64,000 nt of DNA. Origin: Effusibacillus dendaii (GTDB lineage: Bacteria; Bacillota; Bacilli; Tumebacillales; Effusibacillaceae). Of this stretch, positions 27,676 to 55,749 are shown in pieces. The notes below the pieces were generated by a model, which was given only the letters and a program-made list of their open reading frames with translations, was not told where the DNA came from and did no database searches. The stretch is taken from positions 3,189,001 to 3,253,000 of the forward strand of contig NZ_AP023366.1 of NCBI RefSeq assembly GCF_015097055.1, written 5' to 3'. Within the stretch, counting starts at the first letter, position 1; each line of letters begins with the position of its first letter. Both the position numbers and the translations under genes were made by a program.

Positions 27676-27683
27676 CGTTGGAG

Positions 27684-27707: not shown

Positions 27708-27749
27708 CTATCATAATGCGACAATGAGATATATTTTTTTACGCAATAA

Positions 27750-27765
27750 AACCCTAGGGGGGTAA
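27750..27765 (+). promoter_or_regulatory. CsoR operator upstream of csoR-copA-copZ
   Basis: AACCCTAGGGGGGTAA fits the Bacillales CsoR box (TACCC.A.GGGGTA). It lies 26 bp before the csoR start and implies autoregulation of csoR and copper-induced expression of copA. Confidence 0.65.
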
Positions 27766-27790
27766 GGTAGTCAAAGAGGTGAATCAAGCG

Positions 27791-28069
27791 ATGTACAACT
27801 ATCACAGCGATAAAGATCAATTGCTGCGCAACCTTCGGAAAATCGAAGGGCAGGTTCGAGGCGTGCAGAAGATGATTGAGGAAGACCGCTACTGCGTGGA
27901 CATTTTGACACAGTTGGCGGCAATCAAGGCAGCTACCAACAAAATCGGGCTAACGCTTTTGGAACATCATACGCGGGGCTGCGTAACCAAAGCGATTCAA
28001 AACAACGACGATGGCGGGGAACACCATATTCAGGAATTGATGGATGTAGTCCGGGCTTTTACCAAGTGA
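27791..28069 (+). CDS. csoR: Copper-sensing repressor CsoR
   Basis: From ATG 27791 the product has 92 residues and is all-helical. It carries the Cu(I) ligand set of CsoR: Cys in RYCVDIL, His and Cys in LLEHHTRGCV (pattern C...H...C). RKIEGQVRGVQKMIE is the conserved first helix, and the Tyr and Glu second-shell residues are present. Apo-CsoR represses; Cu(I) releases it. The upstream frame would allow GTG 27779, but ATG fits the family. It lies 27 bp before copA, with an operator in front. Confidence 0.93.
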   Translation: MYNYHSDKDQLLRNLRKIEGQVRGVQKMIEEDRYCVDILTQLAAIKAATNKIGLTLLEHHTRGCVTKAIQNNDDGGEHHIQELMDVVRAFTK

Positions 28070-28096
28070 TATTGCATAAGTGTGGAGGTGATTTTG

Positions 28097-30508
28097 ATGA
28101 GCACTGCAGTTCAAGAGAAAACCGGGTCCACAGCCAGCCTGAAAATTGAAGGGATGACTTGTGCGGCATGCGCCAACCGGATCGAAAAGGGGCTTGCCAA
28201 GCTGGATGGAGTCGAACAGGCAAACGTCAATTTTGCGTTGGAAAAAGCAACTGTAGTATACGATGCAGACAAAATCAATTTGCAGGATTTACAGAAAAAG
28301 GTGGTTGACCTTGGGTACGGCGTATCGATCGACAAGCTGGAGCTTGACATTACGGGGATGACCTGTGCGGCATGCGCCAACCGGATTGAAAAAGGCCTTA
28401 ACAAGCTTCCGGGAGTCACCCAGGCTAACGTCAATTTGGCATTGGAGCGGGCGACTGTTCAGTATAATCCTGGCGAAATCAGTGCAGCCGATATGATCCA
28501 GAAAGTGAAGGATCTTGGATATGGGGCTGCTCTGCACAAAGATGCGGAACAGCAGGAGGACAGCCGGGAAAAGGAAATTCGCCGTCAGAAACTGCGGTTT
28601 ACCGTGTCGGCCATCCTTTCCTTGCCGCTTTTGTATACGATGTTTGCCCATTTTGGCTGGAGCGGTGTGTACATGCCGCATGTTCTGATGAATCCGTGGG
28701 TGCAGTTTGCGCTTGCGACACCGGTACAGTTTGTCATCGGCTGGCCATTTTATCGAGGCGCGTACAAAGCGTTGAAAAACGGCAGCGCCAATATGGATGT
28801 TCTGGTGGCGCTGGGCACGTCGGCCGCTTATTTTTACAGTCTGGCGGCGATTCTTACAGGGAACACGGAAAAACTTTATTTTGAAACAAGTGCGATTCTA
28901 ATTACGCTGATCATTCTCGGCAAACTGTTTGAAGCCGTTGCGAAAGGGCGCACTTCGGAAGCGATCAAAAAACTGATGGGGATGCAGGCGAAAACGGCAC
29001 TCGTAGTGCGGGACGGCAAGGAAACGGTGATTCCAGTAGAAGAAGTGCTGGTCGGCGATACCGTGATCGTCAAACCGGGAGAAAAAATTCCGGTGGACGG
29101 GGTGGTTCTGTCCGGCACATCCGCTGTGGATGAATCGATGTTGACCGGTGAGAGCGTTCCTGTCGATAAAACAACCGGTGGTTCGGTGATTGGTTCGACG
29201 ATCAACAAGAACGGTTCGCTTACATTCAAAGCGACAAAAGTCGGAAAAGATACGGCGTTGGCACAGATTATCCGCGTGGTGGAACAGGCGCAGGGGTCGA
29301 AAGCTCCGATTCAGCGGACAGCGGATGTGATCTCGGGTATCTTCGTGCCGATTGTGGTCGGGATTGCAATTATTGTCTTTTTCATCTGGTATTTGGCCGT
29401 TGATGCAGGCAACTTCACGCATGCGTTGGAAAATGCGATTGCCGTTCTTGTGATCGCCTGCCCTTGCGCGTTAGGGCTGGCCACTCCCACCTCCATTATG
29501 GTGGGAACAGGGAAAGGCGCTGAATTGGGCATTCTGTTTAAAGGCGGCGAGCATCTTGAGGCGGCCCATAAATTGAACACCATTATTCTTGATAAAACAG
29601 GCACCATTACCAAAGGGGAGCCTGCATTGACCGACGTGGTCGTACTTGCGGATATCCCGGCAGACAAGCTGCTCGCGCTTGCCGCCAGCGCCGAAAAAAA
29701 TTCGGAACATCCGCTGGCCCAGGCGATTGTCAATGGAGCAAAAGAGAAAAATCTCGATTTGTCTCAATCCGAACAGTTTGAGGCAATCCCGGGATACGGA
29801 TTGTCTGCAACAGTCTACGGACGGAAGCTCTTCATCGGCACGCGCAAACTGATGGAACGCGAACAGATTAATGCAAGCAACGCGCAAGCCAGCATGGAAC
29901 GGCTGGAAGACGAAGGGAAAACAGCCATGCTGGTGGCTGTTGACGGAAAGCTGGCGGGTATTGTGGCAGTTGCCGATACGGTCAAGGAAAGTTCCAGACA
30001 GGCGATCGCCAAATTGAAAGAGCTGGGTCTGGAAGTGGTTATGATCACAGGAGACAATCGGCGTACCGCTGAAGCGATTGGCAAACAGGTCGGCATTTCG
30101 GAAATCCGGGCGGAAGTTCTGCCGGAAGGCAAGGCAAAGGAAGTGGAATCTTTTAAGGCGCAGGGCAAAAAGGTGGCCATGGTGGGAGACGGTGTAAACG
30201 ATGCGCCCGCTTTGGCAACAGCCGATGTGGGTATGGCGATCGGCACCGGTACCGACGTCGCGATGGAAGCGGCCGATGTCACACTGATGCGGGGAGAACT
30301 GACCAGCATTGCAGACGCGATTTCACTCAGCCATAAGACAATGAACAATATCAAGCAAAATCTGTTCTGGGCACTGTTCTACAATTCGATCGGCATTCCG
30401 GTAGCGGCTGCCGGGTTGTTGGCACCCTGGGTGGCGGGAGCGGCGATGGCGTTCAGCTCCGTGTCGGTTGTATTGAATGCATTGCGATTAAAACGGGTAA
30501 AAATATAA
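28097..30508 (+). CDS. copA: Cu(I)-exporting P1B-type ATPase CopA
   Basis: The product has 803 residues. Two N-terminal HMA domains each contain GMTCAAC (Cys 22/25 and 90/93). Eight membrane helices are predicted, with the ion-path motif CPC (Cys 455/457), the phosphorylation site DKTGT (Asp 499), TGES, the SEHPLA HP motif and [10 protein letters not shown]. These together define a Cu(I) exporter of the P1B-1 class. ATG 28097 follows GGAGGTG. The operon is csoR-copA-copZ, with CopZ delivering Cu(I) to the pump. Confidence 0.97.
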
Positions 30509-35460: not shown

Positions 35461-36087
35461 TTAACTTGATTTGGTTAATTCCAAAATATCTTCCAGAATT
35501 TGTTGATTGTCCATATTTTTTCCCATCGTATAGATTTTCCGGATGTTGTTGTTCTGGTCGATCAGGAAAAGGGATTTGGTGGGATGCGTGAAAAATCCGT
35601 CGTCTTGTTTTTCGGCAAATAGGTTATAGCTTTTCAAAACTTCCTGAATTTCTTGTTCCGTTCCGGTATAAAAATTCCATCCGCTCCAATCGACCTTCAG
35701 CTTGTTGCCGTAATTTTTCAGATTGGCCGGTGTATCCCGTGTTGGGTCAAACGTAATGGTGACAAATTCCGTTTTGTTTCCGAACAGGTGGCGTTTTTTC
35801 AACTGTTCCTGGATCGATACCATATTGATCGTGGTAGTCGGGCAAATATCCGGACAGTTCAGGTAGATAAACTCCACCAGTTTGACTTTTGGCGCGAGAT
35901 CCTGAAACGATTGCCGCTGTCCGTTAATATTTTGCAACGTCCAGTTGGGCGCCGCGTTGACCACGGGCAGCCGCGTGAATCCCCACGCAATCCAATAAGC
36001 CAGGCCGCCTGCAAATGCGAGGCTAAGAATAACAATGATGAGGGTCAAAATTCGTTTGTTCGCAATTCGTGTAAGGTTTCCCCGCAT
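35461..36087 (-). CDS. SCO1/SenC copper chaperone
   Basis: The 208-residue product has an N-terminal membrane anchor (ILTLIIVILSLAFAGGLAYWI) and a thioredoxin-like SCO domain. The copper ligands are CPDIC and the His in GFFTHPTKSLFLID. TFDPTRDTPANL is a further family signature. SCO proteins deliver copper to the CuA site of cytochrome c oxidase or act as thiol-redox proteins outside the membrane. A broken YtkA-like lipoprotein gene lies just upstream, a common partner. Confidence 0.95.
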   Translation of the reverse strand: MRGNLTRIANKRILTLIIVILSLAFAGGLAYWIAWGFTRLPVVNAAPNWTLQNINGQRQSFQDLAPKVKLVEFIYLNCPDICPTTTINMVSIQEQLKKRHLFGNKTEFVTITFDPTRDTPANLKNYGNKLKVDWSGWNFYTGTEQEIQEVLKSYNLFAEKQDDGFFTHPTKSLFLIDQNNNIRKIYTMGKNMDNQQILEDILELTKSS

Positions 36088-36953: not shown

Positions 36954-37583
36954 ATGGACAGATTAGTAACGATAGGCGAAGCTTCAAAGGTGTTGGGAGT
37001 ATCGATTACAACACTCCGGCGATGGGAAAAAGAAGGCCGTTTGCAACCGGATGAAATTACCCCCGGCGGCCATCGGCGATACGATCTTGTGAAACTGCGG
37101 CCTGAATTGTTCCGGCTTCAGCGCAGCGACAGAACAACCGTGGCCTATGCCAGAGTATCAAGCCACGATCAGAAAGAGGATTTGGAGCGACAGAAACAAG
37201 TCCTTGAAATGTACTGCGCTTCGCAAGGGTGGACGTTTGAAGTGGTTTCTGACCTTGGATCGGGAATGAACTACCACAAAAAAGGTTTGAAACGCCTCTT
37301 ACACGCCATCTTGCAGGACGAAGTAGGCAGACTGGTCATCACACACAAAGATCGTCTCCTTCGTTTTGGTGCGGAGCTGGTCTTCGCCATTTGTGAGGCG
37401 AAAGAGGTGGAAGTGGTGATTCTCAACCAGGGCGAAGACACTACGTTTGAAGAAGATCTTGCCAAGGATGTTTTGGAGATTATCACGGTGTTTTCTGCAC
37501 GGCTCTACGGTTCGCGTTTACGCAAGAACCAGAAGCTCATAGAAGGGATGAAGCGGGTGGTTGAGGATGCTGAGAAGCCATAA
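36954..37583 (+). CDS. tnpA: IS607 serine resolvase/transposase TnpA
   Basis: The product has 209 residues. The N-terminal MerR-type helix-turn-helix (TIGEASKVLGVSITTLRRWE, with PGGHRRYD) is followed by a small serine-recombinase domain with the catalytic Ser in AYARVSSHDQKEDLERQ and the motif GSGMNYHKKGLKRLL. It cuts and rejoins DNA through a Ser-DNA bond and needs no target inverted repeat. It is intact and overlaps tnpB by 17 bp. Translation probably starts on a leaderless transcript. Confidence 0.95.
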   Translation: MDRLVTIGEASKVLGVSITTLRRWEKEGRLQPDEITPGGHRRYDLVKLRPELFRLQRSDRTTVAYARVSSHDQKEDLERQKQVLEMYCASQGWTFEVVSDLGSGMNYHKKGLKRLLHAILQDEVGRLVITHKDRLLRFGAELVFAICEAKEVEVVILNQGEDTTFEEDLAKDVLEIITVFSARLYGSRLRKNQKLIEGMKRVVEDAEKP

Positions 37584-38733
37584 GATTGCGCTTCAACCGA
37601 ATAACAAGCAGTCCACCTACTTCGCAAAAGCGTGTGGTGTGGCTCGCTTTGCCTTCAATTGGGGCTTGGCAGAATGGAAGCGACAGTATGAAGCAGGTGA
37701 AAAGCCGACAGAAGCGTCACTTCGCCGTCAACTGAACTCGATTAAAAGAGATCAGTTTCCGTGGATGCTCGAAGTGACGAAAAACGCCCCGCAAATGGCG
37801 ATCATCCATTTGGGGCAGGCGTTCAGGAACTTTTTTTCTGGTCGCGCGAAGTATCCCACATTCAAAAAGAAAGGCGTCCATGACAGTTTTACGTTGACCA
37901 ACGATCAGTTTGCGGTCAGTGGCAAGCGAATCCGCATCCCGAATCTTGGTTGGGTACGGATGCGGGAAGCGTTGAGGTTTTCCGGCAAAATCATGTCTGC
38001 CACCATTTCGCGTAAGGCGGGCAAGTGGTTTGTCAGTATTACGGTAGACACCGAAGACGTACCGCCGATGAGCGAAAGCCAAGCCATCGTCGGTGTGGAT
38101 TTGGGAATCAATCGTCTGGCCACCTTGTCGGACGGGACGATGGTGTCGGGAGCGAAGCCGCATAAGACTCTTTTGAAACGGTTGCGCCGTCTGTCCCGCT
38201 CTCTATCGCGTAAGCAAAAAGGTTCAAAGAACAGAGCGAAGGCGAAACAGAAATTAGCGAAGCTCCACGTGCGGATCGCCAACATTCGCCATGATGAGTT
38301 GCACAAGCTGACGACCAACCTGGCGAGCCAATATGGCGTGATCGTGATCGAGGACCTAAACGTCAAAGGTATGATGACGAATCATCGCTTGGCGCGAGCG
38401 GTTGGCGACATGGGTTTTCATGAATTTCGCAGGCAGTTGGAGTATAAGACGGCGATGCGAGGCGGACGGGTGATTGTCGCAGACAGGTGGTTTGCATCGA
38501 GCAAGGCATGCTCAGATTGTGGCACAAAGGAAGAGGACATGCCACTGTCGATACGCGAGTGGACATGCCCTGAGTGCGGAATCCATCATGATCGAGACTT
38601 GAATGCTGCAAGGAATCTGATGAAATTGGCCGTGAGTTCCACGGCGACAGCCTGTGGAGAGAGCGTAAGACCTGCTAACACAGGGGCAGCCTCAACGAAG
38701 CAGGAATTCAACGTCAAAGCTACCTATGTGTAG
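37567..38733 (+). CDS. tnpB: TnpB RNA-guided nuclease of IS607
   Basis: The 388-residue product has the RuvC-like triad: Asp 178 in IVGVDLGINRLAT, Glu 262 in VIEDLNVKG, and Asp 344 in HHDRDLNAARN. The zinc finger CSDCG...CPECG lies between the last two. The N-terminal REC/WED part is complete (KIALQPNNKQSTYFAKACGV). TnpB cuts DNA next to a target-adjacent motif using an RNA made from the element end, which helps the element to persist. All catalytic residues are intact. Confidence 0.95.
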   Translation: MLRSHKIALQPNNKQSTYFAKACGVARFAFNWGLAEWKRQYEAGEKPTEASLRRQLNSIKRDQFPWMLEVTKNAPQMAIIHLGQAFRNFFSGRAKYPTFKKKGVHDSFTLTNDQFAVSGKRIRIPNLGWVRMREALRFSGKIMSATISRKAGKWFVSITVDTEDVPPMSESQAIVGVDLGINRLATLSDGTMVSGAKPHKTLLKRLRRLSRSLSRKQKGSKNRAKAKQKLAKLHVRIANIRHDELHKLTTNLASQYGVIVIEDLNVKGMMTNHRLARAVGDMGFHEFRRQLEYKTAMRGGRVIVADRWFASSKACSDCGTKEEDMPLSIREWTCPECGIHHDRDLNAARNLMKLAVSSTATACGESVRPANTGAASTKQEFNVKATYV

Positions 38734-39236: not shown

Positions 39237-39398
39237 TCTGGAGGTTTAGGCCTGTTCAAGGCCTAATTGGTACAACGTCACCGCCCCCTATGAGTGTAAT
39301 GGTTCGAATTTGGTGACCGCGCTGCGACATTTTGTTGTTGTATAAAAAACGGTTCAATCCCCAAAATAACCCTATGTTGTTTGGGAAAGGGGGATTCG

Positions 39399-42300
39399 AT
39401 GTTTGGGCGTGCAATTCCCGGTCGTATTCGGATACAAGTACATAGTTTAAAGCACAACCATTTTTTGAAAAGGGAATGGGAGCGGAAGCTCCTTCAACTG
39501 GCCGGTGTGATGGGGGTAGAGGCCAATCCAATTACAGGACGTGTACTGATTCTGTTTGACGAATCGGCTGTGACAGCGGATCAGATTGGTGAATGGGTGG
39601 AAGAAATCGAAGAAATATATGCGATGGCAGAAGAGTCTGGCGAGTTGACAAAAGCGGCGGCAGAAGCTGCTTCAACGGCAGAAGCGTGGCTTGAGGCAGG
39701 TGAGTATCAGGAGTGGCATGCCCGGCCGATCGAAGCGGCGATTGAACTGTTGAGAACGAACGAAAACGGCCTTCCATCGTCCGAAATCAATCAAAGGTTG
39801 GCTCGTCACGGGCCGAACGCTTTGCAGGAGGCCCCGCGCCCAGGTTGGTGGCGCTTATTTTTTCGTCAATTTGCCAACTTTATGACGATTGCGTTGATGG
39901 CATCCGCTTTTGCGACGCTGCTGCTGGGACGGGTGATGGATGCGGCCAGTATTTTTGCCGTACTTCTGTTGAATGCGTCACTGGGAACGTTTCAAGAGCG
40001 AAAGGCGGAAGACGAAGCGCAGGCGCTCCGCAAACTGACTGCGCCAACCGCAAAGGTGCTGCGTGACGGACAGGAAGTGGAAGTCCCGGCAAATACACTG
40101 GTGCCTGGCGATGTGATTGTCGTTGATCCAGGCGACCAAATTCCGGCGGATGCGAGATTGATCGACTGTTGGAATTTGGAAGTGGACGAGTCTTCGCTCA
40201 CAGGCGAATCCGTTCCTGTCCGGAAAAAATCCGGCTTGTGCAACAATGATACCGCTCTTGCGGATCGCACCAATATGCTGTTTATGGGAAGCCATGTGAC
40301 TCGGGGCCGTGCCCGCAGCGTGGTGGTGGCCACAGGCATGGAAACCGAACTGGGACGATTGTTCGCGCTGATTCAGAAGCAGCCGGAAGAATCCACTCCG
40401 CTGCAGAAAAAGTTAAATGTATTGGGGCAGTATCTGGTCTACGTGTCTTTAGGCATCAGTCTGTTTGTGATGCTGATTGGGCTTTTGCGCGGCAATCCGT
40501 TTGCCGATATGTTGATGACCGCCATCAGTCTCGCCACATCGGCGATACCGGAAGGATTGCCAATCATGATCACAATTGCGTTAGCGGTCGGCATGCGGCG
40601 GATGGTCGGCAAAAATGCGTTGGTCCGCAAACTGTCCGCGTTGGAAACGCTCGGTCGTGCCACCGTGATCTGTACAGATAAAACGGGCACGCTAACGAAA
40701 AACGAGATGACTGTACGTGCGGTATCCACTGCGGTGAAAACATGGGATGTGAGCGGGAACGGTTTTGCGCCGATCGGTCAATTTACGGAAAACGAACAAC
40801 TTACGGATGTAAAGAAAGAAGCCGATTTGGAATGGCTGCTGAGGGCGGCCACGCTCTGCAGTGATGCAAAACTGCTTCATAATGGGACGGAAGAGTGGGA
40901 AGCGGCACTGGCGCAAGGAGGTTTGTCCAGTTTTGATGAGGGGTGGACGATTCAGGGCGATCCGACCGAAGGATCGATTCTGGTCGCGGCGGCAAAAGCG
41001 GGTATCCTGCCGGAAAGCTGCCGGAAACCGTGGGAACGGCTGAAAGAAACACCATTTGAATCAGAAAGAAGGCGTATGTCTGTCGTTTGCCGGGATTCTG
41101 GCAATCAATGCAAGCTGATTGTGAAAGGTGCGATTGAAGATTTGCTTATGTTGTGTGATCGAGTGCAGGTGGACGGGCAGCTGGAAACACTCACAGAATC
41201 CCATAAAAACCTGATTATGGAGAAAAATGATCAGTTTGCTTCGCGTGCCCTGCGTGTATTGGCGGTGGCTTATCGTCCTCTGCCGGATGATTATGACCCG
41301 GTTGGCGAAGAAGGGGAAATGGATGAGCAAAATCTGATTTTTCTCGGCATCATCGGAATGATCGACCCGCCGCGTGATCAGGTAAAAGAAAGTATCGCCC
41401 ACTGTCAAAAAGCGGGCATCAAAGTCGTAATGATTACCGGCGATCATCCGCAAACGGCTGCCGCTATTGCGCGTGAGCTAAACCTTTTATCCGATGGCGG
41501 CCGGGTGTTGACCGGACCTGAACTGGACCAATTAACCGATGATGAATTGGTGGAGCTTGTACCAAGTGTGGACGTTTATGCTCGCGTCTCGCCTCACCAC
41601 AAGCTGCGGATTGTCGCTTCCTTCAAAAAAAGGGGTGAAATTGTGGTGATGACGGGGGACGGTGTCAACGACTCGCCTGCCGTCAAACAGGCCGATGTCG
41701 GAATCGCAATGGGAAGAGCCGGCGTGGATGTAACCAAACAGGCGTCCTCGATGATTATTACCGATGATAATTTTGTCACGATTTGCAAGGGTGTACAGGA
41801 AGGCCGCTCGATACTCGGAAATATTCGCAAATCATTAGGGTATCTGTTAAGCGGAAATCTGGGGGAAGTGATTTATGCCACACTGGCTGTTTTAATTGGC
41901 ATGCCGCTGCCGCTCGTGCCTATCCAGATTTTGCTGATTAATCTGTTTACTGACGCCCTTCCTTCGATTGCGCTTGCGATGGGCAATTCAATCGGGGATC
42001 AGAACGCATTGTCTTTGCGAAGCGCGCGCGATGTGACAGATCGCAATCTGATTACGCAAATTGTTGCGCGCGGCGTCGTGATTGGTCTGACGACCATGGC
42101 CGTATTTTCCGGAACATTGGCACTGACCGGCAATCTGATGTTGGCTCGTACCATGGCTTTCATGACCGTTTGCGCCAGCGAGCTGATACAGGCGGTTGAT
42201 TGGTGGCGAAACGACGAAGCTGACAAGAAACACAGCAGTCTGTTGCTGCAAGACCGATTTATGACAGGAACTTTAGCGGTTTCCTGGGCGGGATTGTTAT

Positions 42301-42521
42301 CGATTGTATACCTGCCGCCGTTGCAGGGTGTATTCCAAACGGTTGCCTTATCACCGTTGCACTGGCTGATTATTCTTGCCATCGGAGGGTCGATTTCGAT
42401 GCTCACCCGACCGGTTGCCCGGCTTGTTGCGATCACCGGTCAAAAACTCCAGGTCCTGATTCAGGCGTCAGCCGCCAACAGAATATCGGGCCGTTTTCAG
42501 CAACCGCAGACTGCCGCATGA
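39399..42521 (+). CDS. Large P-type ATPase, type-IIA core with N-terminal HMA-like domain (1)
   Basis: The product has 1040 residues. Residues 1-60 form an HMA-like fold without CxxC (IPGRIRIQVHSL, then NPITGRVLILFDE). The rest is a complete P-type pump: TGES (Thr 268), PEGLP (Glu 385), DKTGT (Asp 427) and GDGVND (Asp 754), with ion-site residues in helices 5 and 6 as in Ca2+-ATPase (NLGEVIYA, NLFTDALPS). Catalysis should be intact. The ion could be Ca2+, Mn2+ or Mg2+; this is not decidable here. ATG 39399 follows GAAAGGGGG. Confidence 0.92.
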   Translation: MFGRAIPGRIRIQVHSLKHNHFLKREWERKLLQLAGVMGVEANPITGRVLILFDESAVTADQIGEWVEEIEEIYAMAEESGELTKAAAEAASTAEAWLEAGEYQEWHARPIEAAIELLRTNENGLPSSEINQRLARHGPNALQEAPRPGWWRLFFRQFANFMTIALMASAFATLLLGRVMDAASIFAVLLLNASLGTFQERKAEDEAQALRKLTAPTAKVLRDGQEVEVPANTLVPGDVIVVDPGDQIPADARLIDCWNLEVDESSLTGESVPVRKKSGLCNNDTALADRTNMLFMGSHVTRGRARSVVVATGMETELGRLFALIQKQPEESTPLQKKLNVLGQYLVYVSLGISLFVMLIGLLRGNPFADMLMTAISLATSAIPEGLPIMITIALAVGMRRMVGKNALVRKLSALETLGRATVICTDKTGTLTKNEMTVRAVSTAVKTWDVSGNGFAPIGQFTENEQLTDVKKEADLEWLLRAATLCSDAKLLHNGTEEWEAALAQGGLSSFDEGWTIQGDPTEGSILVAAAKAGILPESCRKPWERLKETPFESERRRMSVVCRDSGNQCKLIVKGAIEDLLMLCDRVQVDGQLETLTESHKNLIMEKNDQFASRALRVLAVAYRPLPDDYDPVGEEGEMDEQNLIFLGIIGMIDPPRDQVKESIAHCQKAGIKVVMITGDHPQTAAAIARELNLLSDGGRVLTGPELDQLTDDELVELVPSVDVYARVSPHHKLRIVASFKKRGEIVVMTGDGVNDSPAVKQADVGIAMGRAGVDVTKQASSMIITDDNFVTICKGVQEGRSILGNIRKSLGYLLSGNLGEVIYATLAVLIGMPLPLVPIQILLINLFTDALPSIALAMGNSIGDQNALSLRSARDVTDRNLITQIVARGVVIGLTTMAVFSGTLALTGNLMLARTMAFMTVCASELIQAVDWWRNDEADKKHSSLLLQDRFMTGTLAVSWAGLLSIVYLPPLQGVFQTVALSPLHWLIILAIGGSISMLTRPVARLVAITGQKLQVLIQASAANRISGRFQQPQTAA

Positions 42522-42567: not shown

Positions 42568-42747
42568 ATGGAACCGTTAGAATGGATTCTGGCAGGCGCA
42601 GTGGTATATGCTCTATTCCCCGGCGTTCGGCGGGCCGTAGGAAAAACATGGAACGGTCTGCAGTCGGCAACCAACCAGGCGATGGAGGGTGTGGGGCAGA
42701 CTGCACAAAAGAAGATGAATACCATGGATTCGCCGGAAAATCGTTAA
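42568..42747 (+). CDS. Small single-helix protein between P-type ATPase genes
   Basis: The 59-residue product has the strong site GAAAGGGGG. One short membrane segment (WILAGAVVYALFPGV) is followed by a basic turn (RRAVGKTW) and a hydrophilic helix (LQSATNQAMEGVGQTAQKKM). The hydrophobic-Pro-xx-Arg pattern is shared with the small protein at 50313-50507. It may be a regulatory subunit of the neighbouring pump, as small membrane peptides are for other P-type ATPases; that is inference. Confidence 0.7.
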   Translation: MEPLEWILAGAVVYALFPGVRRAVGKTWNGLQSATNQAMEGVGQTAQKKMNTMDSPENR

Positions 42748-42836: not shown

Positions 42837-45620
42837 TTGCCAGGCGCGATTGGAACCATAGGAATTTTCGCTATACGGTTGGCAGCTATACCAGGACTGT
42901 TTATCCGTCACATGTTGCAAAACGGATCGTCTGCTGCATCCTCGATGATGGGGCAACAGGTGCAGGAGCGGGAGGAACGGGCAAGCGCACGGCGTCCGGA
43001 AGAAGTTCCATTGGCCGATGGGTGGGAAACCGGACTTACTGAGCAGGAGGCCAAGCGACGGCTGGCAGCGCACGGTTCTAACGAATATCGACCGATACCG
43101 AGCCATATCCAGTTGTTGGGACAAACGTTGAAAAGTGCATCCACCCTCAGTTTGCTGGGGCTAGCCGTGTTCGCTCTTGTAATGGGCAAATATGTTGATG
43201 CGGCAATCGTCTTTGTCACATTTGCCGTATTGGGGGCTGTTTCTGTACGTGTAAAGGTGAAGGCGGCGCAAAATCATCGCCGTATGTTGGAAACGGAAGC
43301 AACAGCGTCCGTTCTCCGGGATGGAAAAATTTGCGAGATTGCTCCCGCATATGTCGTGCCCGGTGATCTGATATTTGTACGGCAGGGTGATGTGGTGCCC
43401 GCTGACGCGGTCGTTTTACGATCCGAACATCTGAAGGTCCGCGAAAAGCAGGTTCGGGGAAATGGGAACCGTGCCGATTTTTATCTGGTTGCAAAAGCAG
43501 CCCTTGATAATGGCCATTTGCCGCAGGTTCTGCCGCTTCATAACGTGGCCGAGGCAAACAGGCTGTATGCGGGATCGATGGTAGTTGGCGGATCTGCAAA
43601 GGCGTTGGTGACCTCAACAGGAAGAGCCACTCACCATTGGCAGCTGCATCAACATCCAAAACAACATGAAACATTCACAGAACAACGGTATTTCAAGTTT
43701 GCCGAAAAATTGACGAAGTACGGGTGGCTGGCTATTTTGGCGGTAGGGGTCTTGGTGCTTGCAGTCAGATGGTCCGGCTCAGCAGCATTGGAGACAGCTA
43801 TAGCAATTGGCACATCTGTAATTCCTGGCGGATTTTCGCTGCCGATCGTATTGGCGTTCTGGACGGCCATGCATCGAACAAGCCGAAAAGCTCAGGATCT
43901 TCCCGATTTACACGCGGCAGACCGGCTGGAAGACACCAAACTGGTCATCCTGTCTGAACAGGCAGTCACACGAAGGATACAGATCAAAAAGCTGTTCTGT
44001 CCGCAATCTCGCTGGCAGGTAAAACCGGATCTGCAGGATCATATGCACACCGGCAGGCTTCGTTTCTACCAAAATGGGATTTTGCAGGAGCCAAGCGGCA
44101 GACCGGAATGTAAAGCCCTTGTGCAGGCCGCCAAGCTGTTTGCAAGGGCGGAAGGGGATTGCGGTCCTTATGATCAAGCGGTTAACCGCTTGTACGACAA
44201 TTTCGGCTTGTCAGGTGCTCAGCGGACCGATTGGGAGTGGATCGGGCAAGGTGTTTTGGAATCGCACGGTCTGTTTGAATCACGGATGTTTAAGGATCCA
44301 ACAGGACGTGTGGTGGAAGTGGTGCGCGGACCTGCAGAACGTTTGTATGAAAGCTGCAGCCGAGTCATCTCTCCCTTGCACGATCTTGCAAATCTGGATG
44401 TGACAGGGAGTTCCCTTGCTGATGACCAAGCAGCGGAAGCGCTGCAAAGTTGGCTGGAAACTACCCGGCGGCATTATGAACAAACGATCGGTTTCGCCTG
44501 TCGGGTACATGCGGATTCGCTTGGGGAAGCAGGTTCTCTGATTTGGCTGGGAGCCATCTCTTACCAAACCGAATATGAAACGTCCGCTCCTTTATTGGAA
44601 CGGTTCGTAAAATTGGGCCTGCCAGTCCTGTTGACCGTTCAGGAGCATGTGTTAAGCGACCCGGCATTTCGAAGGTCGGTTTCATTCGATGGTATTAGGT
44701 GCAAGGTGGTCTCCGCCGGGGAATTGGGCCGGACGATGGAGCAGGAAGCAATAGACAATTACGATTTGTGGATCGTGTCTGCCCATTCGGAGGAACGGTT
44801 GAAATTGATCCAGAAACTGAGGGAAGTCTTCTCGCATATCTGTTTTGTCGGTTGCCGCGATCAGGAGAGAGCTTATTTTGGCGCCGCCTGGACAGCGGTG
44901 GAACAGGGGATTAGACGCGGATTGCATGACGTATTGGAAGCGATTGAGGAAGCACGTCACGCGAAATCGCGGATCAGCCATGCAAACGGATTTATCCTCA
45001 GCGGAAATGTCGGTGAAGCGGTGTTTTCATTGCTCGCCGGTCTTACGGGTGCACAGCAGGCACTGACACCTATCAACATCAATCTGCTGACAAACGTATT
45101 CGCTTCGATTGGACTGGCAGCCGGTCGGCGAAAGATGGATCGGCAGCAACCGACGGAAGGAAAAAATCTGAGCAAACTGCACAAACCGATCGTAACACAC
45201 GGCTTGATGTCCGGTTCGGTTGCGATGCTCTCATACGCAGGAGGGCTGTTGATCAGCGGCGATCCGTTTTTTGCAAGCACGTTTGCGTTTGCAACGCTGA
45301 TTCTGTCCCAATTGTGGCAAGCCGTTCACTGGCGGCGGCAGTCACGAGTGGCAAAACTGAAGGATATGGTCGAGGATCGAGTGTTGGCAGTCAGCCTGCT
45401 GGGATCGCTGGCGATTTTAGTGGCAAGCGTTTATATGCCAGGGGTGACGCAACTGTTGCAGACAACGCCGCTTGCCCTGCAGGATTGGCTTGCAGCTATG
45501 GCGATTGCGGGCGCGGTGGGTCCGCTTGCTTCCAAAAGCGAAAATTCAGTTTGGCCAGTCGTCAAACGAATGGCGGGATGGTTGCAGGCAAAGGAAAGAA
45601 ACTTGCAGACAGCTGCCTGA
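42837..45620 (+). CDS. P-type ATPase paralogue lacking all catalytic motifs (pseudo-ATPase)
   Basis: The product has 927 residues from TTG 42837 (site AAAGAGGTGATCC); upstream frame to 42561 overlaps another gene. The layout copies the pumps on either side: N-terminal helix, actuator region, helix 4, nucleotide region, helices 5-10. However, PEGLP is PGGFSLP (Gly 331), DKTGT is SEQAVT (Glu 374), TGES is replaced by VRGNGN, and GDGVND is absent. GNVGEAVF (Glu 727) and NLLTN remain in helices 5 and 6. The frame is unbroken over 2.8 kb, so a non-catalytic role is more likely than recent decay. It lacks the HMA-like domain. Confidence 0.85.
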   Translation: MPGAIGTIGIFAIRLAAIPGLFIRHMLQNGSSAASSMMGQQVQEREERASARRPEEVPLADGWETGLTEQEAKRRLAAHGSNEYRPIPSHIQLLGQTLKSASTLSLLGLAVFALVMGKYVDAAIVFVTFAVLGAVSVRVKVKAAQNHRRMLETEATASVLRDGKICEIAPAYVVPGDLIFVRQGDVVPADAVVLRSEHLKVREKQVRGNGNRADFYLVAKAALDNGHLPQVLPLHNVAEANRLYAGSMVVGGSAKALVTSTGRATHHWQLHQHPKQHETFTEQRYFKFAEKLTKYGWLAILAVGVLVLAVRWSGSAALETAIAIGTSVIPGGFSLPIVLAFWTAMHRTSRKAQDLPDLHAADRLEDTKLVILSEQAVTRRIQIKKLFCPQSRWQVKPDLQDHMHTGRLRFYQNGILQEPSGRPECKALVQAAKLFARAEGDCGPYDQAVNRLYDNFGLSGAQRTDWEWIGQGVLESHGLFESRMFKDPTGRVVEVVRGPAERLYESCSRVISPLHDLANLDVTGSSLADDQAAEALQSWLETTRRHYEQTIGFACRVHADSLGEAGSLIWLGAISYQTEYETSAPLLERFVKLGLPVLLTVQEHVLSDPAFRRSVSFDGIRCKVVSAGELGRTMEQEAIDNYDLWIVSAHSEERLKLIQKLREVFSHICFVGCRDQERAYFGAAWTAVEQGIRRGLHDVLEAIEEARHAKSRISHANGFILSGNVGEAVFSLLAGLTGAQQALTPININLLTNVFASIGLAAGRRKMDRQQPTEGKNLSKLHKPIVTHGLMSGSVAMLSYAGGLLISGDPFFASTFAFATLILSQLWQAVHWRRQSRVAKLKDMVEDRVLAVSLLGSLAILVASVYMPGVTQLLQTTPLALQDWLAAMAIAGAVGPLASKSENSVWPVVKRMAGWLQAKERNLQTAA

Positions 45621-45662: not shown

Positions 45663-48600
45663 TTGCAAGGTAACAGAGATATTTCCGTTCGTCCGACGGG
45701 GTGGACCGATTTTCCGTTTGGTCGCTTGATCCACCGGCTGCCTGGACGAGTGCGATTTCAAATAAACAGATTGCCAGGGAATCAGGCTATGGCCAATCTT
45801 ATCCGTGACATCTGCGGCCAGATCAACGGGGTCAAACAAGTAACCGTTAATCCTGTCACCGGCCGTATGTTGCTGCTGTTTGATGAAACGAAACTTACCG
45901 GAGACCAGTTGCTGGGGCTATTGCTCGAAGCAGACGTACTGTTTGTATCCCAACAGGCGGTAGCGGCTGCGAAAGAAACATCGGCCACAGACGGTCATCC
46001 TGTGACTGTAAAGGAGGCCCAAACGGACGCGGGCGCGTCAAACGCTGAGGGATCCGCTGCCGTAGACGGCAACCTTGCAGTCGAAACGGACTGGCATGCG
46101 CTTCCGCCGAGCGAAATTGTGGAACGGCTGCACAGTAACAGCAGCAGCGGGCTCGATCGCAACGAAGTGATGGAACGCCGTCGGTTTTTTGGAACGAACG
46201 AACTGCCGAAGGTGGAACGTCCAGCTTGGTATCGAACGCTGCTGCGCCAATTTTTTAATTTTACTACGTTTACCATGGTGGGGATCTCGGCGCTGCCTAT
46301 TTTCCTGGGTCGAATCCGCGATACGGCGGGCGTGCTGCTGGTGCTTGCCGTCAATGCGGTGATCGGCACCTATCAGGAACAGAAGGCGCAAAAAGATGTG
46401 GAGGCGTTAAAAAAACTGTCTGTGCATCATGCGAAAGCGATCCGTTCCGGTGAGGAAATCCGGATATTGGCCGATCAACTGGTGCCGGGTGACATTTTGC
46501 TGTTGGAAGCGGGTGATCGGGTTCCGGCCGATGCCATTTTGGTAGACAGTTCAAATGTCGAAGTTGACGAATCCGCTCTGACAGGTGAATCTCTGCCCGT
46601 TCCCAAAATGGCGGCGATTGTATGTGAAACGGAAACTCCCTTGGCGGAACGAAAAAATATGGTCTACATGGGCACCTTGCTGACGCGAGGGCGGGCCCGG
46701 GCGATTGTTGTCGCAACAGGCAGACAGACTGAAATGGGACGGTTGACCCACGTTTTGCAGAATGTGGAAAGCAGACCCACGCCACTGCAAAAAAAATTAA
46801 ACGTGGTGGCCCGAACGCTTGTCATCTCAGCTTTGGCGATTGCGGGCGCGGTAGGCGCCGCCCGCTTTATACAGGGATATTCGTTGATCGATACATTAAT
46901 GACAGGGGTATCGGTGGCCACAACAGCCATTTCAGAAGGATTGCCGATCATGATTACGGTTGCGCTGGTGACCGGCATGCGCCGGATGGTTCGTCACAAA
47001 GCGGTCGTACGGCAGCTGGCGGCACTGGAAACGTTGGCCAAAGTGGACATCATCTGTTGTGACAAAACAGGCACATTGACCACCAATCAAATGACTGTCA
47101 GGCAAGTGGTTTGCGGCGAACGGGAATGGAGCGTAACGGGCCACGGCTATCAACGGACAGGAAACTTTCTGGAAAACGGGCAGTCGGTCGAGTCCCGTAG
47201 CAACCGGAATTTGGGGTGGATTGCGACGATTGCCGCTGTCTGTAATGATGCATCGATTATGCCTGACGGTCACACATGGGAAATCAAAGGGGATCCGACG
47301 GAAGCGGCGCTCTTGGTGGCTGCTGCCAAAGCGGGAATTTTGCAGGATGTGTGCCGCAACGAATGGCAAAGATTGCACGAACTCCCATTTGATTCGGAAC
47401 GCCGCCGGATGAGCGTTGTTTGCCGAAATCAGATTGGCGAATATTACCTGTTCTGTAAAGGCGCGGTTGATGAATTATTGAAAATATGCGATCATGCATT
47501 GACCGAAGAATCGACTCGACCGCTTGATACCCGTTTGCGAACGAAACTGATCGAACAGGAATACAAGGCGGCGGAACAGGGGATGCGGGTGCTTGGGGTT
47601 GCCTACAAACGTCTCGATCATTTGCCGTCCACACCTCTTAACGAATGGGAGAGCGGCCTGGTTTTTGGCGGCATGTTTGCGATGATGGACCCGTTGCGGC
47701 AAGATGTGCAAACGAGTATCGAAACATGCAGACAATCGGGGATGGAAGTGGTGATGATTACGGGCGATCACCCAAAAACGGCTCAGGCCATCAGTCGGGA
47801 ACTGGGATTCGTGTGCAGTGATCAGCAGATTTTGTCCGGTACCGAATTGGATCGCATGTCAGATGAGGAACTGATGAAAGCCACCCGTCAAATCAAAATA
47901 TATAGCCGTGTTTCGCCAGCCGGAAAGCAGCGAATTGTGTCCGCCCTGCAAAAACGCGGCCTGGTCGTGGCGATGACCGGTGACGGTGTGAATGATGCGC
48001 CTGCGCTGAAACAAGCGGATGTTGGCATCGCGCTTGGTTCAGGCACGGATGTGGCAAAAGAATCATCCGCGCTGGTGCTCGCAAACGATCATTTCAGCGC
48101 GATTGTAAAAGCGATCCGGCAGGGCAGAACGGTGCTCAGCAATATTCGCAGCACCATCGGATACATATTTACAGGCAACTTGGCTGAAGTTTTGTACGCA
48201 TCGTTAGTAGTGGCAGCCGGATTGCCGTTGCCGCTGATGCCGCTGCAGATGATGCTGATGAACATTCTGACCGACTCGTTGCCGACCCTGATTATGACGC
48301 TTGGACAGCCATCGGCGAGACGCAACCAGCAATCGGTTGAACGGTTGCCTTCCGTTCGCGATGTATTCGATTCGACGCTGCTTACCCGTGTCACAGCAGG
48401 CGGGCTGCCTGTTGGTCTGGCTACAGCCGCTTTGTTTATCGGCGTACTGGCGATCACCCACAACCCGGCGCTCGCCAGTACGATGGCGTTGGCTGCTCTG
48501 GCGCTGGGAAAATTGGCTCTGGTGCCCGAGTGGCGGCGTGCCAGCGGCAGCGCAAGCTTGCGGCAGGATTACATGATGCTGACTACGCTTGCCGTTTCCT

Positions 48601-48842
48601 TGACCGGACTTTTGGCGTCGATCTATTTGCCGCAGCTGCGCGGCGTGTTCAACAGTGTTCCATTGGGTGTCCATCATTGGGCGGTGATTGCGGCATCCGT
48701 ATTTACGGCAAGGCGGCTGGCTGAGCCGTTAACCCGCATGGCATTGGGACTGGTTCGTTATGTGGCTCTACTGGGACAGTCGATTCGATTCAGCTCCGCT
48801 GTCGGTCGTTACACGGCTGCTTCGCATACCGGCTGCCAATAG
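45663..48842 (+). CDS. Large P-type ATPase, type-IIA core with N-terminal HMA-like domain (2)
   Basis: The product has 1059 residues from TTG 45663 (site AGAAGGG). The HMA-like domain (LPGRVRFQINRLPG, then NPVTGRMLLLFDE) lacks Cys. A linker rich in Ala, Thr and Glu leads to a full pump with TGES (Thr 307), EGLP in SEGLPIMIT (Ser replaces the usual Pro), DKTGT (Asp 467), [20 protein letters not shown] and ion-site helices NLAEVLYA and NILTDSLPT. It is probably active. It follows the pseudo-ATPase by 42 bp. Its last 75 bp overlap the convergent MFS gene. Confidence 0.92.
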   Translation: MQGNRDISVRPTGWTDFPFGRLIHRLPGRVRFQINRLPGNQAMANLIRDICGQINGVKQVTVNPVTGRMLLLFDETKLTGDQLLGLLLEADVLFVSQQAVAAAKETSATDGHPVTVKEAQTDAGASNAEGSAAVDGNLAVETDWHALPPSEIVERLHSNSSSGLDRNEVMERRRFFGTNELPKVERPAWYRTLLRQFFNFTTFTMVGISALPIFLGRIRDTAGVLLVLAVNAVIGTYQEQKAQKDVEALKKLSVHHAKAIRSGEEIRILADQLVPGDILLLEAGDRVPADAILVDSSNVEVDESALTGESLPVPKMAAIVCETETPLAERKNMVYMGTLLTRGRARAIVVATGRQTEMGRLTHVLQNVESRPTPLQKKLNVVARTLVISALAIAGAVGAARFIQGYSLIDTLMTGVSVATTAISEGLPIMITVALVTGMRRMVRHKAVVRQLAALETLAKVDIICCDKTGTLTTNQMTVRQVVCGEREWSVTGHGYQRTGNFLENGQSVESRSNRNLGWIATIAAVCNDASIMPDGHTWEIKGDPTEAALLVAAAKAGILQDVCRNEWQRLHELPFDSERRRMSVVCRNQIGEYYLFCKGAVDELLKICDHALTEESTRPLDTRLRTKLIEQEYKAAEQGMRVLGVAYKRLDHLPSTPLNEWESGLVFGGMFAMMDPLRQDVQTSIETCRQSGMEVVMITGDHPKTAQAISRELGFVCSDQQILSGTELDRMSDEELMKATRQIKIYSRVSPAGKQRIVSALQKRGLVVAMTGDGVNDAPALKQADVGIALGSGTDVAKESSALVLANDHFSAIVKAIRQGRTVLSNIRSTIGYIFTGNLAEVLYASLVVAAGLPLPLMPLQMMLMNILTDSLPTLIMTLGQPSARRNQQSVERLPSVRDVFDSTLLTRVTAGGLPVGLATAALFIGVLAITHNPALASTMALAALALGKLALVPEWRRASGSASLRQDYMMLTTLAVSLTGLLASIYLPQLRGVFNSVPLGVHHWAVIAASVFTARRLAEPLTRMALGLVRYVALLGQSIRFSSAVGRYTAASHTGCQ

Positions 48843-50676: not shown

Positions 50677-52578
50677 ATGCTGACCGTCTCTGAAAACGGG
50701 CGCTCGCTTCGCTGCCTGCCCGGGCGTGTTCGAATCGAAATCAATGGATTGAAGAACAATCCCCTGTTACGGGATCTTATCGCCCGGCGATTTGGCCAGA
50801 TAGAGGGAGTGACGACTGTAAAGGCGTGCCTGGTGACAGGGAGAGTGCTGCTCTGTTATGACGAAAATCGCGTTTCGTTCGGTAAACTGTATGAGACTGT
50901 ACAGGCGTTGGAAAACCAGCACGAGCAAGTAACAAAAATGGAGCAGGAAGTCGCGGTTGCCCGCCAGTCGATGGTGGCGGAAACAAGCTCCATTTTTATA
51001 CCGCAGCCGACCCATCCCCCCCTTCCAAACGGCGATCGTGTCCCGTCTGAAAAAAAAATTCCGGTGCCATTGATCGCATCTGTCGCCGGATTGGGAGTCA
51101 TCGGCATCAAACAGTTGTTGACCGGCGGAGCCTCCGCATTGGCGCAAAATCTGCCGCTTTTTTATCTGTCCGGCCTGGTTGCCATTGTCTCGGGCTATCC
51201 GTCGATCAGCCGAACCATCCAAAGAATCATGCCGGTTGCGGATCAGAAATTCAATCCGATTTTTGCAGGTGCGCTGATTCTTGCTCTGCTTCGCGAAAAT
51301 TTGCCTGTACTCGGTACGCTCAGTCTCATCCAATACCTCAATTGGAAACGGGAGTGCGCTTTACGAAACGGAACTTTGCAAACCACCCGTCCGGAGTCGG
51401 ACACGGCTGTGCAAAGATACTGTCAAACAGCCGAAAAAAGAGGATTTCTGTTAGCCGCAGCCACACTGCTTTTGACCCGCAGCCCGCTTGTCAGCCTGGC
51501 TGTCCTGTTGGCGTCGAATCCCCGACCGGCCGCCATGTCTGAAGAATATGCCTGGAACCAGGCAGCATTAACAGCGGCGGAACGGGAGTATCCACTGCCT
51601 GAAAACGGATCGATCGAGCAGATGGCACGTACCCGATTGCTTTTGGTCGAAGACACGTCGCTTCTTTTTCGTATTGATCCGGAAGCGGCAATTGAATGTG
51701 TTGCGGACGGCGATGATGAGGCAAAAATATGGTGCGAAACGGCCGCTCTTCTGCGCAAAAGCGATCATCCGTGGAAAGCGGAGGTGATTCGCAATGCGGA
51801 AGCAACCGGTCGGACGATGCGGACCGCTTTTTACGTGGAGGAAGAACCGCAAGGCGTCAAAGGCATGATTAACGGAACCGAGTTTTTGATAGGCGAGAAA
51901 CATTTCATAATAAAGAACCATGTGGATTGGAAAGAATATGAACAGACGAGCAGGCAGTTGGAAGAGGAAGGATACCAGATTCAGTTTGTGGCAAAACAGA
52001 TGGCCCGCCGGAAAGTATGCATGGGAGTGCTGTATCGCAAAACGGGGAACTGCACACCTGAATATTACAGGCTGACCGATTTGTGCCGCGAGCATCAAAT
52101 GCAGCTTGCCGTTTGGAAAAACAGTCTGCGCATCGACAGGCAAACGCTGCGCAAACATGGAATTCGGCACGGATGGTTATCCTGTCCGGAAGAATGGGCG
52201 ATCAGGCGAATCGCGCGGTTACGGCAGCGGGGGGAAGAAGTGATGCTCGTTTCGGGAAATGTATCCCCGTTTTTACCTGTGCGGGTTCCGACTGTCCCGA
52301 TCCGGCAAATCGGGGAAACCGGTCCGGTTTTCCAATATTCCCGCCGAATCGGGCGGATGATTCAGCATCATTTGGCTGCAACGAAATGTTGGAATCTGCT
52401 GGGGCTTTTGTCCATATTTTTTTACGGGGTTTCGGCTGTTGTAATAAATGCGCTGTCAGATGCGGTGATGCTGTTGTTTCTGGCCCGATCGAAATGGATT
52501 TGCGAAAAAGGCGGGCCGCGGTCGGGGGCTTCAGATGAAACGCTGCCACGAGCTGGCTTCAGCCAGTTAGCTATCTAA
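50677..52578 (+). CDS. HMA-containing P1B-like pseudo-ATPase
   Basis: The 633-residue product begins with the same Cys-less HMA-like domain as the two pumps (LPGRVRIEINGLKNN, then TGRVLLCYDE, residues 12-65). Four membrane segments and a degenerate P1B core follow: GYPSISRTI, a soluble domain with the HP motif KSDHPWKAE (His 364, Pro 365), VKGMINGTEFLIGEKHF, and two C-terminal helices. DKTGT is replaced by EDTSLL (residues 325-330), and CPC and GDGVND are missing. It cannot hydrolyse ATP by the P-type mechanism. The frame is intact, which suggests a structural or sensing role. Confidence 0.8.
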   Translation: MLTVSENGRSLRCLPGRVRIEINGLKNNPLLRDLIARRFGQIEGVTTVKACLVTGRVLLCYDENRVSFGKLYETVQALENQHEQVTKMEQEVAVARQSMVAETSSIFIPQPTHPPLPNGDRVPSEKKIPVPLIASVAGLGVIGIKQLLTGGASALAQNLPLFYLSGLVAIVSGYPSISRTIQRIMPVADQKFNPIFAGALILALLRENLPVLGTLSLIQYLNWKRECALRNGTLQTTRPESDTAVQRYCQTAEKRGFLLAAATLLLTRSPLVSLAVLLASNPRPAAMSEEYAWNQAALTAAEREYPLPENGSIEQMARTRLLLVEDTSLLFRIDPEAAIECVADGDDEAKIWCETAALLRKSDHPWKAEVIRNAEATGRTMRTAFYVEEEPQGVKGMINGTEFLIGEKHFIIKNHVDWKEYEQTSRQLEEEGYQIQFVAKQMARRKVCMGVLYRKTGNCTPEYYRLTDLCREHQMQLAVWKNSLRIDRQTLRKHGIRHGWLSCPEEWAIRRIARLRQRGEEVMLVSGNVSPFLPVRVPTVPIRQIGETGPVFQYSRRIGRMIQHHLAATKCWNLLGLLSIFFYGVSAVVINALSDAVMLLFLARSKWICEKGGPRSGASDETLPRAGFSQLAI

Positions 52579-54195: not shown

Positions 54196-55749
54196 ATGGG
54201 GATGACGCACAAATCGTTGTCTGCAGTAGCAGTAGCAGAAAAGACAACCGAACTGAGGGAGTTTGACATACCTGCCATTCCGTCTCACGCAGGGCTCTTG
54301 AAGGTAGAAATCGTGGGTGTCTGCGGTACGGACGTGTCCTATTACAAGATGGTGAAAGAGCCGAGAATCCTCGGTCACCATGTGGTGGGACACATTGAGC
54401 AAATCGGGGAAGAGGCAGCCAACAGATGGGGAGTAAAGGAAGGCGACCGGGTGGCGATGGAGGAGTATATCCCCTGCGGGCAATGCAGCCATTGCCGTAC
54501 CGGAATGTATCGGGCCTGCGTGTTTACCGATCCGCGGGCAGGCGGCATCCGCTATGGAGCTGCCCCCATATCGATCCCCCCTTCCCTATGGGGAGGTTTC
54601 AGCCAGTATATGTTTAAACGGAAGAGGGAGAACCTATTCAACAGTTGGAGGAGCGGTGATACGGTTATGGCAGCAGGTGAACCGGTTTTTGCGATACGTT
54701 ATTGTCCCGCTTTCGGACATTCCTTGCAGGACCCGAAAAGCTTTTGGAACGAATTCTGGGTTTCCCGCGATCCGCTTGATCCGGATCATTTTGGAAAACA
54801 GAATGTCGGTATCTACCGTTTGCAAGTGCAGGGCCCGGATCGTCTGTCGCTGATGACCATACCCAGCCATGATATGGGAAAGCAAATTATGCTGGCGGAA
54901 AAGCATGGCACACCGTTCAAAATTGCCATCATGCTGGGCAATCATCCGGCTATTACGCTGTTTGCAGGAACACCGCTTGGTTATGCCGAATCGGAATATG
55001 CATATGCAGCAGCCATGATGGGGGACTCGATCGAGTTGACCCAATCGGGCAATGGGTTGGATATTCTGGCAAACTCCGAAATGGTGATTGAAGCGGAGCT
55101 GGTTCATGGAGAGCGCATTTTGGAGGGACCGTTTGGCGAATTTCCGGGGAGTTACAGCGGTGTTCGACGCGCACCGGTTTTCTGCGTGACCGCTGTGTCG
55201 CATCGAAAAAATCCCATTTTTGAGAATATCTATATCGGCAAAGGATGGACGGAGCATGATACGTTGATTGGCCTTCATACGTCGGTTCCGATCTATTCCC
55301 AATTGCGCGAAACATTTCCGGAAGTGGTGGCTGTCAACGCCTTGTACCAGCACGGATTAACCGGCATCATTTCGGTTAAAAACCGGTTCGGCGGATTTGC
55401 CAAATCGGTCGCGCTGCGTGCTCTGGGCACTCCGCACGGCGTCATGTATTTGAAAAATCTGATTATGGTCGATGAAGATGTCGATCCGTTTGACCTGAAC
55501 CAGGTGATGTGGGCGTTGTCGACACGTACCCGGGCGAATGACATTATGGTGCTGCCCAATATGCCCTTGGTCCCGGTTGACCCTTCAGCGGAAGTATCCG
55601 GCAAGGGTCATCGATTGATTATTGATGCCACCAGTTTTGCGCCGCCTGATACCACCGGACATGATGCGCGGATTGTATCGCCGCCCAGCGGCCCTGAAAT
55701 CGATCGGTTGGTCAAACAGATCCGTTCGCTGCAGGAGGGAATTAGATGA
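54196..55749 (+). CDS. Chimeric protein: zinc alcohol dehydrogenase N-terminus fused to UbiD decarboxylase
   Basis: Residues 1 to about 140 are the GroES-like domain of a zinc dehydrogenase: GVCGTDVSYY with catalytic Cys, GHHVVGHIEQIG, the structural zinc site CGQCSHCRTGMYRAC, then LWGGFSQYM, but no Rossmann domain follows. From about residue 190 it is UbiD: SRDPLDPDHFGKQNVGIYR, LEGPFGEFPGSYSG (catalytic Glu pair) and VDEDVDPFDLNQVMWALST. UbiD lacks its first 145 or so residues. The roughly 50 residues between match neither. It looks like a deletion joining two genes; an assembly error is the alternative. Confidence 0.8.
   Translation: MGMTHKSLSAVAVAEKTTELREFDIPAIPSHAGLLKVEIVGVCGTDVSYYKMVKEPRILGHHVVGHIEQIGEEAANRWGVKEGDRVAMEEYIPCGQCSHCRTGMYRACVFTDPRAGGIRYGAAPISIPPSLWGGFSQYMFKRKRENLFNSWRSGDTVMAAGEPVFAIRYCPAFGHSLQDPKSFWNEFWVSRDPLDPDHFGKQNVGIYRLQVQGPDRLSLMTIPSHDMGKQIMLAEKHGTPFKIAIMLGNHPAITLFAGTPLGYAESEYAYAAAMMGDSIELTQSGNGLDILANSEMVIEAELVHGERILEGPFGEFPGSYSGVRRAPVFCVTAVSHRKNPIFENIYIGKGWTEHDTLIGLHTSVPIYSQLRETFPEVVAVNALYQHGLTGIISVKNRFGGFAKSVALRALGTPHGVMYLKNLIMVDEDVDPFDLNQVMWALSTRTRANDIMVLPNMPLVPVDPSAEVSGKGHRLIIDATSFAPPDTTGHDARIVSPPSGPEIDRLVKQIRSLQEGIR

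Follow-up and report, generated by a model that had tools for sequence, protein, structure and literature searches.

In this work, we have analysed a window of 64,000 nucleotides from Effusibacillus dendaii and describe in it a gene, here called P, whose product is a protein of the P-type ATPase fold with a genuine loss of the catalytic motifs. Both the fold assignment, which rests on matches beyond chance, and the loss of motifs are confirmed, and the sequence strongly implies that P is non-catalytic. The gene is under purifying selection and is flanked by two genes for active pumps bearing an HMA_2 domain, A upstream and B downstream (Table 1). We consider it somewhat more probable than an even bet that P serves the adjacent active pump or pumps as a subunit without catalysis, either as partner or as sensor.

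Table 1. Positions in the window of P, of its altered or retained motifs and of the genes clustered with it.
Feature	Position	Strand	Basis or remark
A, active-type P2 ATPase with HMA_2	39381..42521	+	DKTGT, TGES, GDGVND, PEGLP present
Micropeptide gene, 59 aa, directly after A	42568..42747	+	a homologue follows A at two of the three other loci
P, pseudo-P2-type ATPase, 927 aa	42837..45620	+	frame, Pfam, orthologues, alignment, fold model
M4 break IPGGFSLP (residues 329-336) for IPEGLP; PGGFSLP is 330-336	43821..43844	+	alignment; model helix break 329-333
Glu 374 codon, at the phosphorylation position (E, E, D, E in four orthologues)	43956..43958	+	frame and alignment
GCRDQERA (672-679) for the GDGVND loop	44850..44873	+	C673, Q676, E677, R678 and A679 identical across the four orthologues
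Retained M5 residues Asn 724 and Glu 727 (GNVGE, 723-727)	45006..45017	+	alignment
Retained M6 residues Asn 749 and Thr 752; position 753 no longer Asp	45081..45095	+	alignment
B, active-type P2 ATPase with HMA_2	45663..48842	+	DKTGT, TGES, GDGVND; SEGLP for PEGLP in M4
S, 633 aa, HMA_2 and degenerate P1B (heavy-metal) ATPase	50677..52578	+	NPRP for CPC, EDTS for DKTG, without TGES

The initial annotation had described P as a full-length, unbroken frame in which the catalytic motifs are replaced, and this description holds. All 927 codons are open, without an internal stop. Translation starts at a TTG codon with the strong Shine-Dalgarno-like sequence AGAGGTGATC directly 5' of it, and the orthologues of two other genomes, G002 and G004, start at about the same position. 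A longer frame that opens with an ATG at 42561 does no more than cross the small upstream gene in a different frame. None of DKTGT, TGES, GDGVND and PEGLP is present, and the alignment shows that TGD is likewise gone from the family. In place of DKTGT, P carries SEQAVT (residues 373-378), and an ungapped alignment of the loop places Glu 374 at the phosphorylation position; MAFFT puts a two-residue gap in the loop, and E374 then pairs with the Lys of DKTGT. The same loop reads SEQAVT, SEQALT, TDHGLT and SEHGIT across the four orthologues, position 374 being Asp in one of them (G004) and Glu in the other three. TGES is missing from all four, and in all four the GDGVND loop is replaced by GCx(D/E)QERA. 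The replacement of PEGLP and the retention of GNVGE and of the helix-6 Asn and Thr were also read correctly. In the Pfam search, PF00122, PF00689 and PF00690 were above their cut-offs in P (E1-E2_ATPase at 6e-24, Cation_ATPase_C at 1.5e-20), and the same three families were found in three orthologues. Neither a hydrolase nor a nucleotide-binding domain was recognised by Pfam in P, though both were in the neighbours A and B.

Structure prediction with AlphaFold2 from an alignment of the four orthologues and 20 active pumps gave a model of P with a pLDDT of 77.5 and a pTM of 0.73. This model is influenced by the active pumps that were aligned with P; from the four orthologues by themselves, the pLDDT was 41.4. 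The model has long membrane helices in P-type order, and its best neighbours in the PDB include SPCA1 in the E1-AMPPCP state (7yai; Z 39.3 over 801 residues, rmsd 6.3) as well as LMCA1 in the E1-Ca state (Z 34.2). The fold of P, including the broken M4 helix, is predicted to be intact. On this model P would resemble the P2-type Ca2+ ATPases (LMCA1 lmo0841, SPCA1, SERCA) in the order of its parts, in a ten-helix membrane domain, in A-, P- and N-like cytosolic domains and in the break of M4, and by sequence the match to LMCA1 lies mainly over the first third (E 1.8e-33). It differs from these pumps in that the catalytic motifs are absent, the P and N domains are unrecognised by sequence and the acids of M4 and M6 are lost.

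These last losses bear on the ion site. The initial annotation had suggested that P may retain one, and this stands in part: N724, E727, N749 and T752 are invariant in the four orthologues, while the M4 acid is Gly and the M6 Asp (753) is Asn or Gly in all of them. The ion-site set of a Ca2+ pump (M4 Glu, M5 Asn/Glu, M6 Asn/Thr/Asp) is incomplete in P, where the M4 Glu and the M6 Asp are missing. Since both are lost in all four orthologues, a Ca2+-type site is unlikely to be intact; judged from the residues, an intact ion site in P is doubtful and the ion-binding reading is weakened. A different ligand site is possible.

Conservation was read from the alignment of the four orthologues with the 20 active pumps. 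Invariant in the four orthologues are 244 of the 927 positions of P (mean 26%), and at 95 of these the residue never occurs in the same column of the active pumps. The active pumps have 150 columns with a constancy of 95% or more; 37 of these keep their residue in all four P orthologues, and 27 of the remaining 113 carry one new residue that is invariant in the P family. This last proportion is about the family-wide rate of invariance, so the former catalytic columns are overall neither specially kept nor specially free. Among these 27, the M4 Glu has become Gly (331), the Lys of KGA (497) and that of the HKLRIV stretch (654) have both become Arg, and in GDGVND the Asp, Asn and Asp have become Cys, Gln and Glu (673, 676, 677). 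In windows that were chosen after seeing the data, the stretch replacing GDGVND (665-690; 14 of 26 residues invariant) and the M4 break (328-340; 10 of 13) are above the mean, and the phosphorylation loop (365-382; 5 of 18) is not. The best conserved windows of 26 residues lie in M7-M8.

Could P be an enzyme of altered chemistry, with Glu/Asp 374 together with R654, Q676 and E677 forming a HAD-like site for phosphoryl transfer or another reaction? Position 374 is acidic in all four orthologues, and the Arg, Gln and Glu at the former Lys, Asn and Asp positions are invariant. These are swaps of the N706-to-Q, D707-to-E and K684-to-R type in SERCA numbers. With these conservative-looking swaps and the Asp at 374 in G004, a changed chemistry is still conceivable. 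We hold it to be very improbable, as the stretch around 374 is conserved no better than the mean, the first Mg2+ Asp is Cys in all four orthologues, TGD and TGES are gone, and no HAD profile matches.

That the gene is maintained by selection, as the initial annotation had proposed, is supported by the comparison of the orthologues, which showed neither of the two outcomes named there as refuting it (a dN/dS near 1, or no orthologue with the same motif losses). Among them, pN by the NG86 method was 0.26-0.41 and pS 0.71-0.76, the identities at the three codon positions between the window and G002 were 0.64, 0.76 and 0.41, and a Muse-Gaut codon model gave an omega of 0.169, which is a rough measure of constraint only, since dS is saturated. 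Over the same three genome pairs, the dN of P is about 1.4-1.6 times that of pump A. Purifying selection thus acts on P, and is looser than on its live neighbour. In a tree of 32 rows, P falls beside A on a very long stem (SH-aLRT 95; 7.17 changes per column), a placement that is open to long-branch error. This long stem and the faster evolution relative to A are what one would cite for a young pseudogene that has not yet been hit by a stop codon. Such a reading has next to no probability left: P has four diverged and open orthologues, saturated synonymous sites at an omega of 0.17 and 95 family-specific invariant residues, and the orthologues refute it in substance. The three orthologues from other genomes, moreover, share with P both the motif losses and the replacement motifs.

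Matches to P of near-full length were found in four of the 14 genomes of the order, namely its own, G002 of the same genus (55% identity) and two of other families, G004 (52%) and G006 (43%). All four proteins lack internal stops as well as DKTGT, TGES, GDGVND and PEGLP. In G006 the longest frame of the orthologue (L054 3742-6882) has an N-terminal extension of more than 100 aa, and the true start may be further in. Two genomes of the same genus as the window, G001 and G003, are without P; in G005, frames related to pump A are cut off at contig ends, which makes the absence of the cluster there unsure. In the class, 13 of 398 genomes matched P at E 1e-30 or better. Nine of them lie outside the order and are 25-26% identical, and as all nine loci carry DKTGT, TGES and GDGVND, they encode ordinary pumps. 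A profile search in a phylum draw of 398 genomes returned the own genome only, the best two to three candidates per genome being scored in these large draws, and a search of 17 genomes of another class, run with no positive control, returned none. Two contig scans with short peptide patterns revealed no relatives outside the order; they gave 24 pattern matches, none confirmed, and 56 pattern matches, of which one was confirmed over 78 residues only. No plasmid record covers 80% of P or 80% of S, and with a fused pump of the kind described below as query, the pump half alone was seen among the plasmid matches listed. A fusion of P to a pump was found nowhere. The P family is known from four genomes only.

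In the window, 42 bases separate P from B, and an opposed MFS gene lies between B and S. The micropeptide encoded after A has a single hydrophobic stretch, no Pfam match and no NCBIfam match above cut-off; its homologue follows A in G002 and G004 and was not found in the G006 locus. Each of the four genomes has P clustered on one strand with B, S and a further active pump; the gene order is A, B, P, S in G002 and G004, and P, S, B with another active pump in G006. Within the order, frames homologous to A (1,039-1,104 aa) occur only in the four genomes with P. Just upstream of the pump cluster is an IS607-like element (36954-38733) coding for a MerR/resolvase protein and a TnpB/Cas12f-like protein. 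On the far side of S, a single frame at 54196-55749 combines the N-terminal domain of an alcohol dehydrogenase (residues 34-141) with a UbiD decarboxylase that lacks the start of its profile; it looks like a gene chimera and adjoins genes of the aromatic-ring-cleavage type. The damaged-looking genes noticed in the window are this chimera and one short piece of a multicopper oxidase.

S is a second pseudo-ATPase, of P1B descent. Its NPRP for CPC and EDT for DKT are invariant in the four S proteins, and TIGR01525 matches these with E values of 1e-5 to 1e-12, all far below the curated cut-off. When the four proteins were used as queries against 398 genomes of the class, 33 genomes matched at E 1e-25 or better. 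A stand-alone S of 630-700 aa is present in four of the 398, which are exactly those with P; in 24 others S occurs only inside frames of 1,400-1,661 aa, and in five its frames are shorter or broken. G004 and G006 carry a stand-alone as well as a fused S. Of 13 long frames inspected from 12 genomes (G230 was read twice), all 13 have the S part followed by TGES, PEGLP and DKTGT, 11 have NPRxA within the S part, and GDGVND is present in all five whose locus reaches that far. The fused form is a protein of about 1,500 aa with an S-like N-terminal half and an active pump as its C-terminal half. In a phylum draw of 393 genomes, S was found in its own genome only. An S-like stretch with an in-frame TGA was seen in G293, and S-like pieces in frames of 371-482 aa in G252, G279, G315 and G350 may be a further short form. 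Since S is mostly found inside long frames of active pumps, dead ATPases of the S type are usually tied covalently to a live pump; where this tie is cut, P is present.

The history of the cluster was examined by a distance quartet bootstrap with 500 resamples. G002 was grouped with G004 in 416 resamples for P, in 365 for B and, with weak support, in 257 for S; rpoB grouped G000 with G002 in 490, in line with the taxonomy. These groupings fit a movement of the cluster as a unit.

We propose that P goes back to a duplicated P2-type pump, of the kind with HMA_2 that the cluster contains, that it then lost phosphorylation by ATP, and that it was fixed and kept by purifying selection. P probably now serves the active pump or pumps encoded by the same cluster, as a partner or sensor without catalysis of its own. 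Its cytosolic P/N (HAD-like) domain, with GCx(D/E)QERA at the former Mg2+ loop, would contact the HAD domain of the active pump, and the reshaped M4 break would accommodate a ligand or lipid rather than an ion to be pumped. We infer each of these points, that is, the absence of catalysis, the physical partnership, the binding of a ligand and the choice of the partner pump. The role of subunit or sensor suggested in the initial annotation is plausible from the operon-like cluster, the co-occurrence and the fusion of S to a pump elsewhere, and the partnership itself is drawn from the neighbourhood, this co-occurrence, the S fusion and the dimers formed by MgtA. Because B, P and S stand together in all four genomes, B would be the best candidate for the partner. 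The faster evolution of P than of A, a family known from four genomes only, and the fact that P was nowhere found fused to a pump count against the partnership.

The MgtA pump dimerises through its N/P (HAD) domains, which its authors offer as a general feature (PMC10925321). This homodimer may provide a geometry for P and a pump, with the difference that MgtA pairs two active copies, and a pair of P and a pump would have one dead partner. A P4-ATPase linked to a guanylate cyclase in apicomplexans was also considered as a precedent and dropped, as the authors find evidence for a need of the Asp (PMC7858053).

By analogy, the nearest parallel to P would seem to be the human protein TMEM94/ERMA. 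According to the published descriptions, it too is of full length and P-type fold, is without TGES and has GDGVND replaced; it differs in being eukaryotic, in keeping the Asp in DKQGI and in having another M4 motif, and no tandem active pump is described for it in the studies cited here. A cryo-EM study reported a P-type fold, no ATPase activity and binding of AMPPCP with micromolar affinity (PMC12134183), and in a second report, ATP-dependent Mg2+ uptake is described and GDGVND is given as GSSANL (PMC13322241). As is debated for TMEM94, P could be a passive transporter, channel or scramblase on the scaffold of a P-type membrane domain, acting alone and independently of the neighbouring pumps, in which, without an ATP cycle, the reshaped M4 break would pass or bind a ligand or lipid. 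Conservation of IPGGFSLP far above the mean, the polar residues retained in M5-M6 and the position of the best conserved windows in M7-M8 would suit it, as would the fact that TMEM94, without TGES and inactive as an ATPase in one study, causes disease when lost (PMC12134183), and the Mg2+ uptake that the other group ascribes to it (PMC13322241). We think this unlikely, as it leaves unexplained why P is found only alongside B and S in the sampled genomes and why the cytosolic GCx(D/E)QERA is conserved.

Alternatively, P and S could be a membrane receptor or sensor that binds a metal or nucleotide and passes the signal on to a regulator or to the pumps, forming no stable pump complex. The loss of the catalytic motifs in a fold that is predicted to be kept would be compatible with such a receptor, and TMEM94 binds AMPPCP with no hydrolysis detected (PMC12134183). 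Also in its favour, genes of copper type are present in the window at 12342-30508 and 35461-36087, and comprise multicopper oxidases (one a short piece), SCO1 and a metal-sensitive repressor adjoining a P1B pump. These genes are 3 to 30 kb off and may be unrelated, and Pfam recognised no signalling domain on P or S; we give a free-standing receptor a low probability.

Returning to the partner or sensor subunit as the preferred role of P, a stronger form of it would make the product of the whole cluster one P-type pump of hetero-oligomeric make-up: two dead ATPases that arose independently, one from a P2 and one from a P1B ancestor, would be regulatory subunits that the live P2 pumps require. 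We put this forward tentatively, as a bolder proposal that is rather improbable as it stands. The fusions of S to a pump resemble in architecture, by description only, the mycobacterial FUPA24 proteins CtpH and CtpI, which are said to be of roughly doubled length, the N-terminal segment being long and the functional motifs all lying in the C-terminal half (PMC3573892), and which a 2023 review rates as uncharacterised (PMC10654040). To equate the two is at this stage a lead; in the window S is a separate gene, and P, of single length and without catalytic motifs, has no counterpart in that FUPA24 description.

What are the implications of a dead pump kept among live ones? Pseudo-kinases and other pseudo-enzymes are known regulators, and our searches of the open-licence literature brought up no account of a pseudo-P-type ATPase in bacteria. 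With its two dead and two live pumps, such a bacterial cluster would offer a tractable model for the disputed human TMEM94, and it suggests a hypothesis that can be tested about the N-terminal half, as yet unexplained, of proteins of the CtpH/CtpI type. If the hetero-oligomer is true, one half of this system would exist in covalently fused form as the CtpH/CtpI-type (FUPA24) proteins, and bacterial P-type ATPases would divide labour between live and dead subunits.
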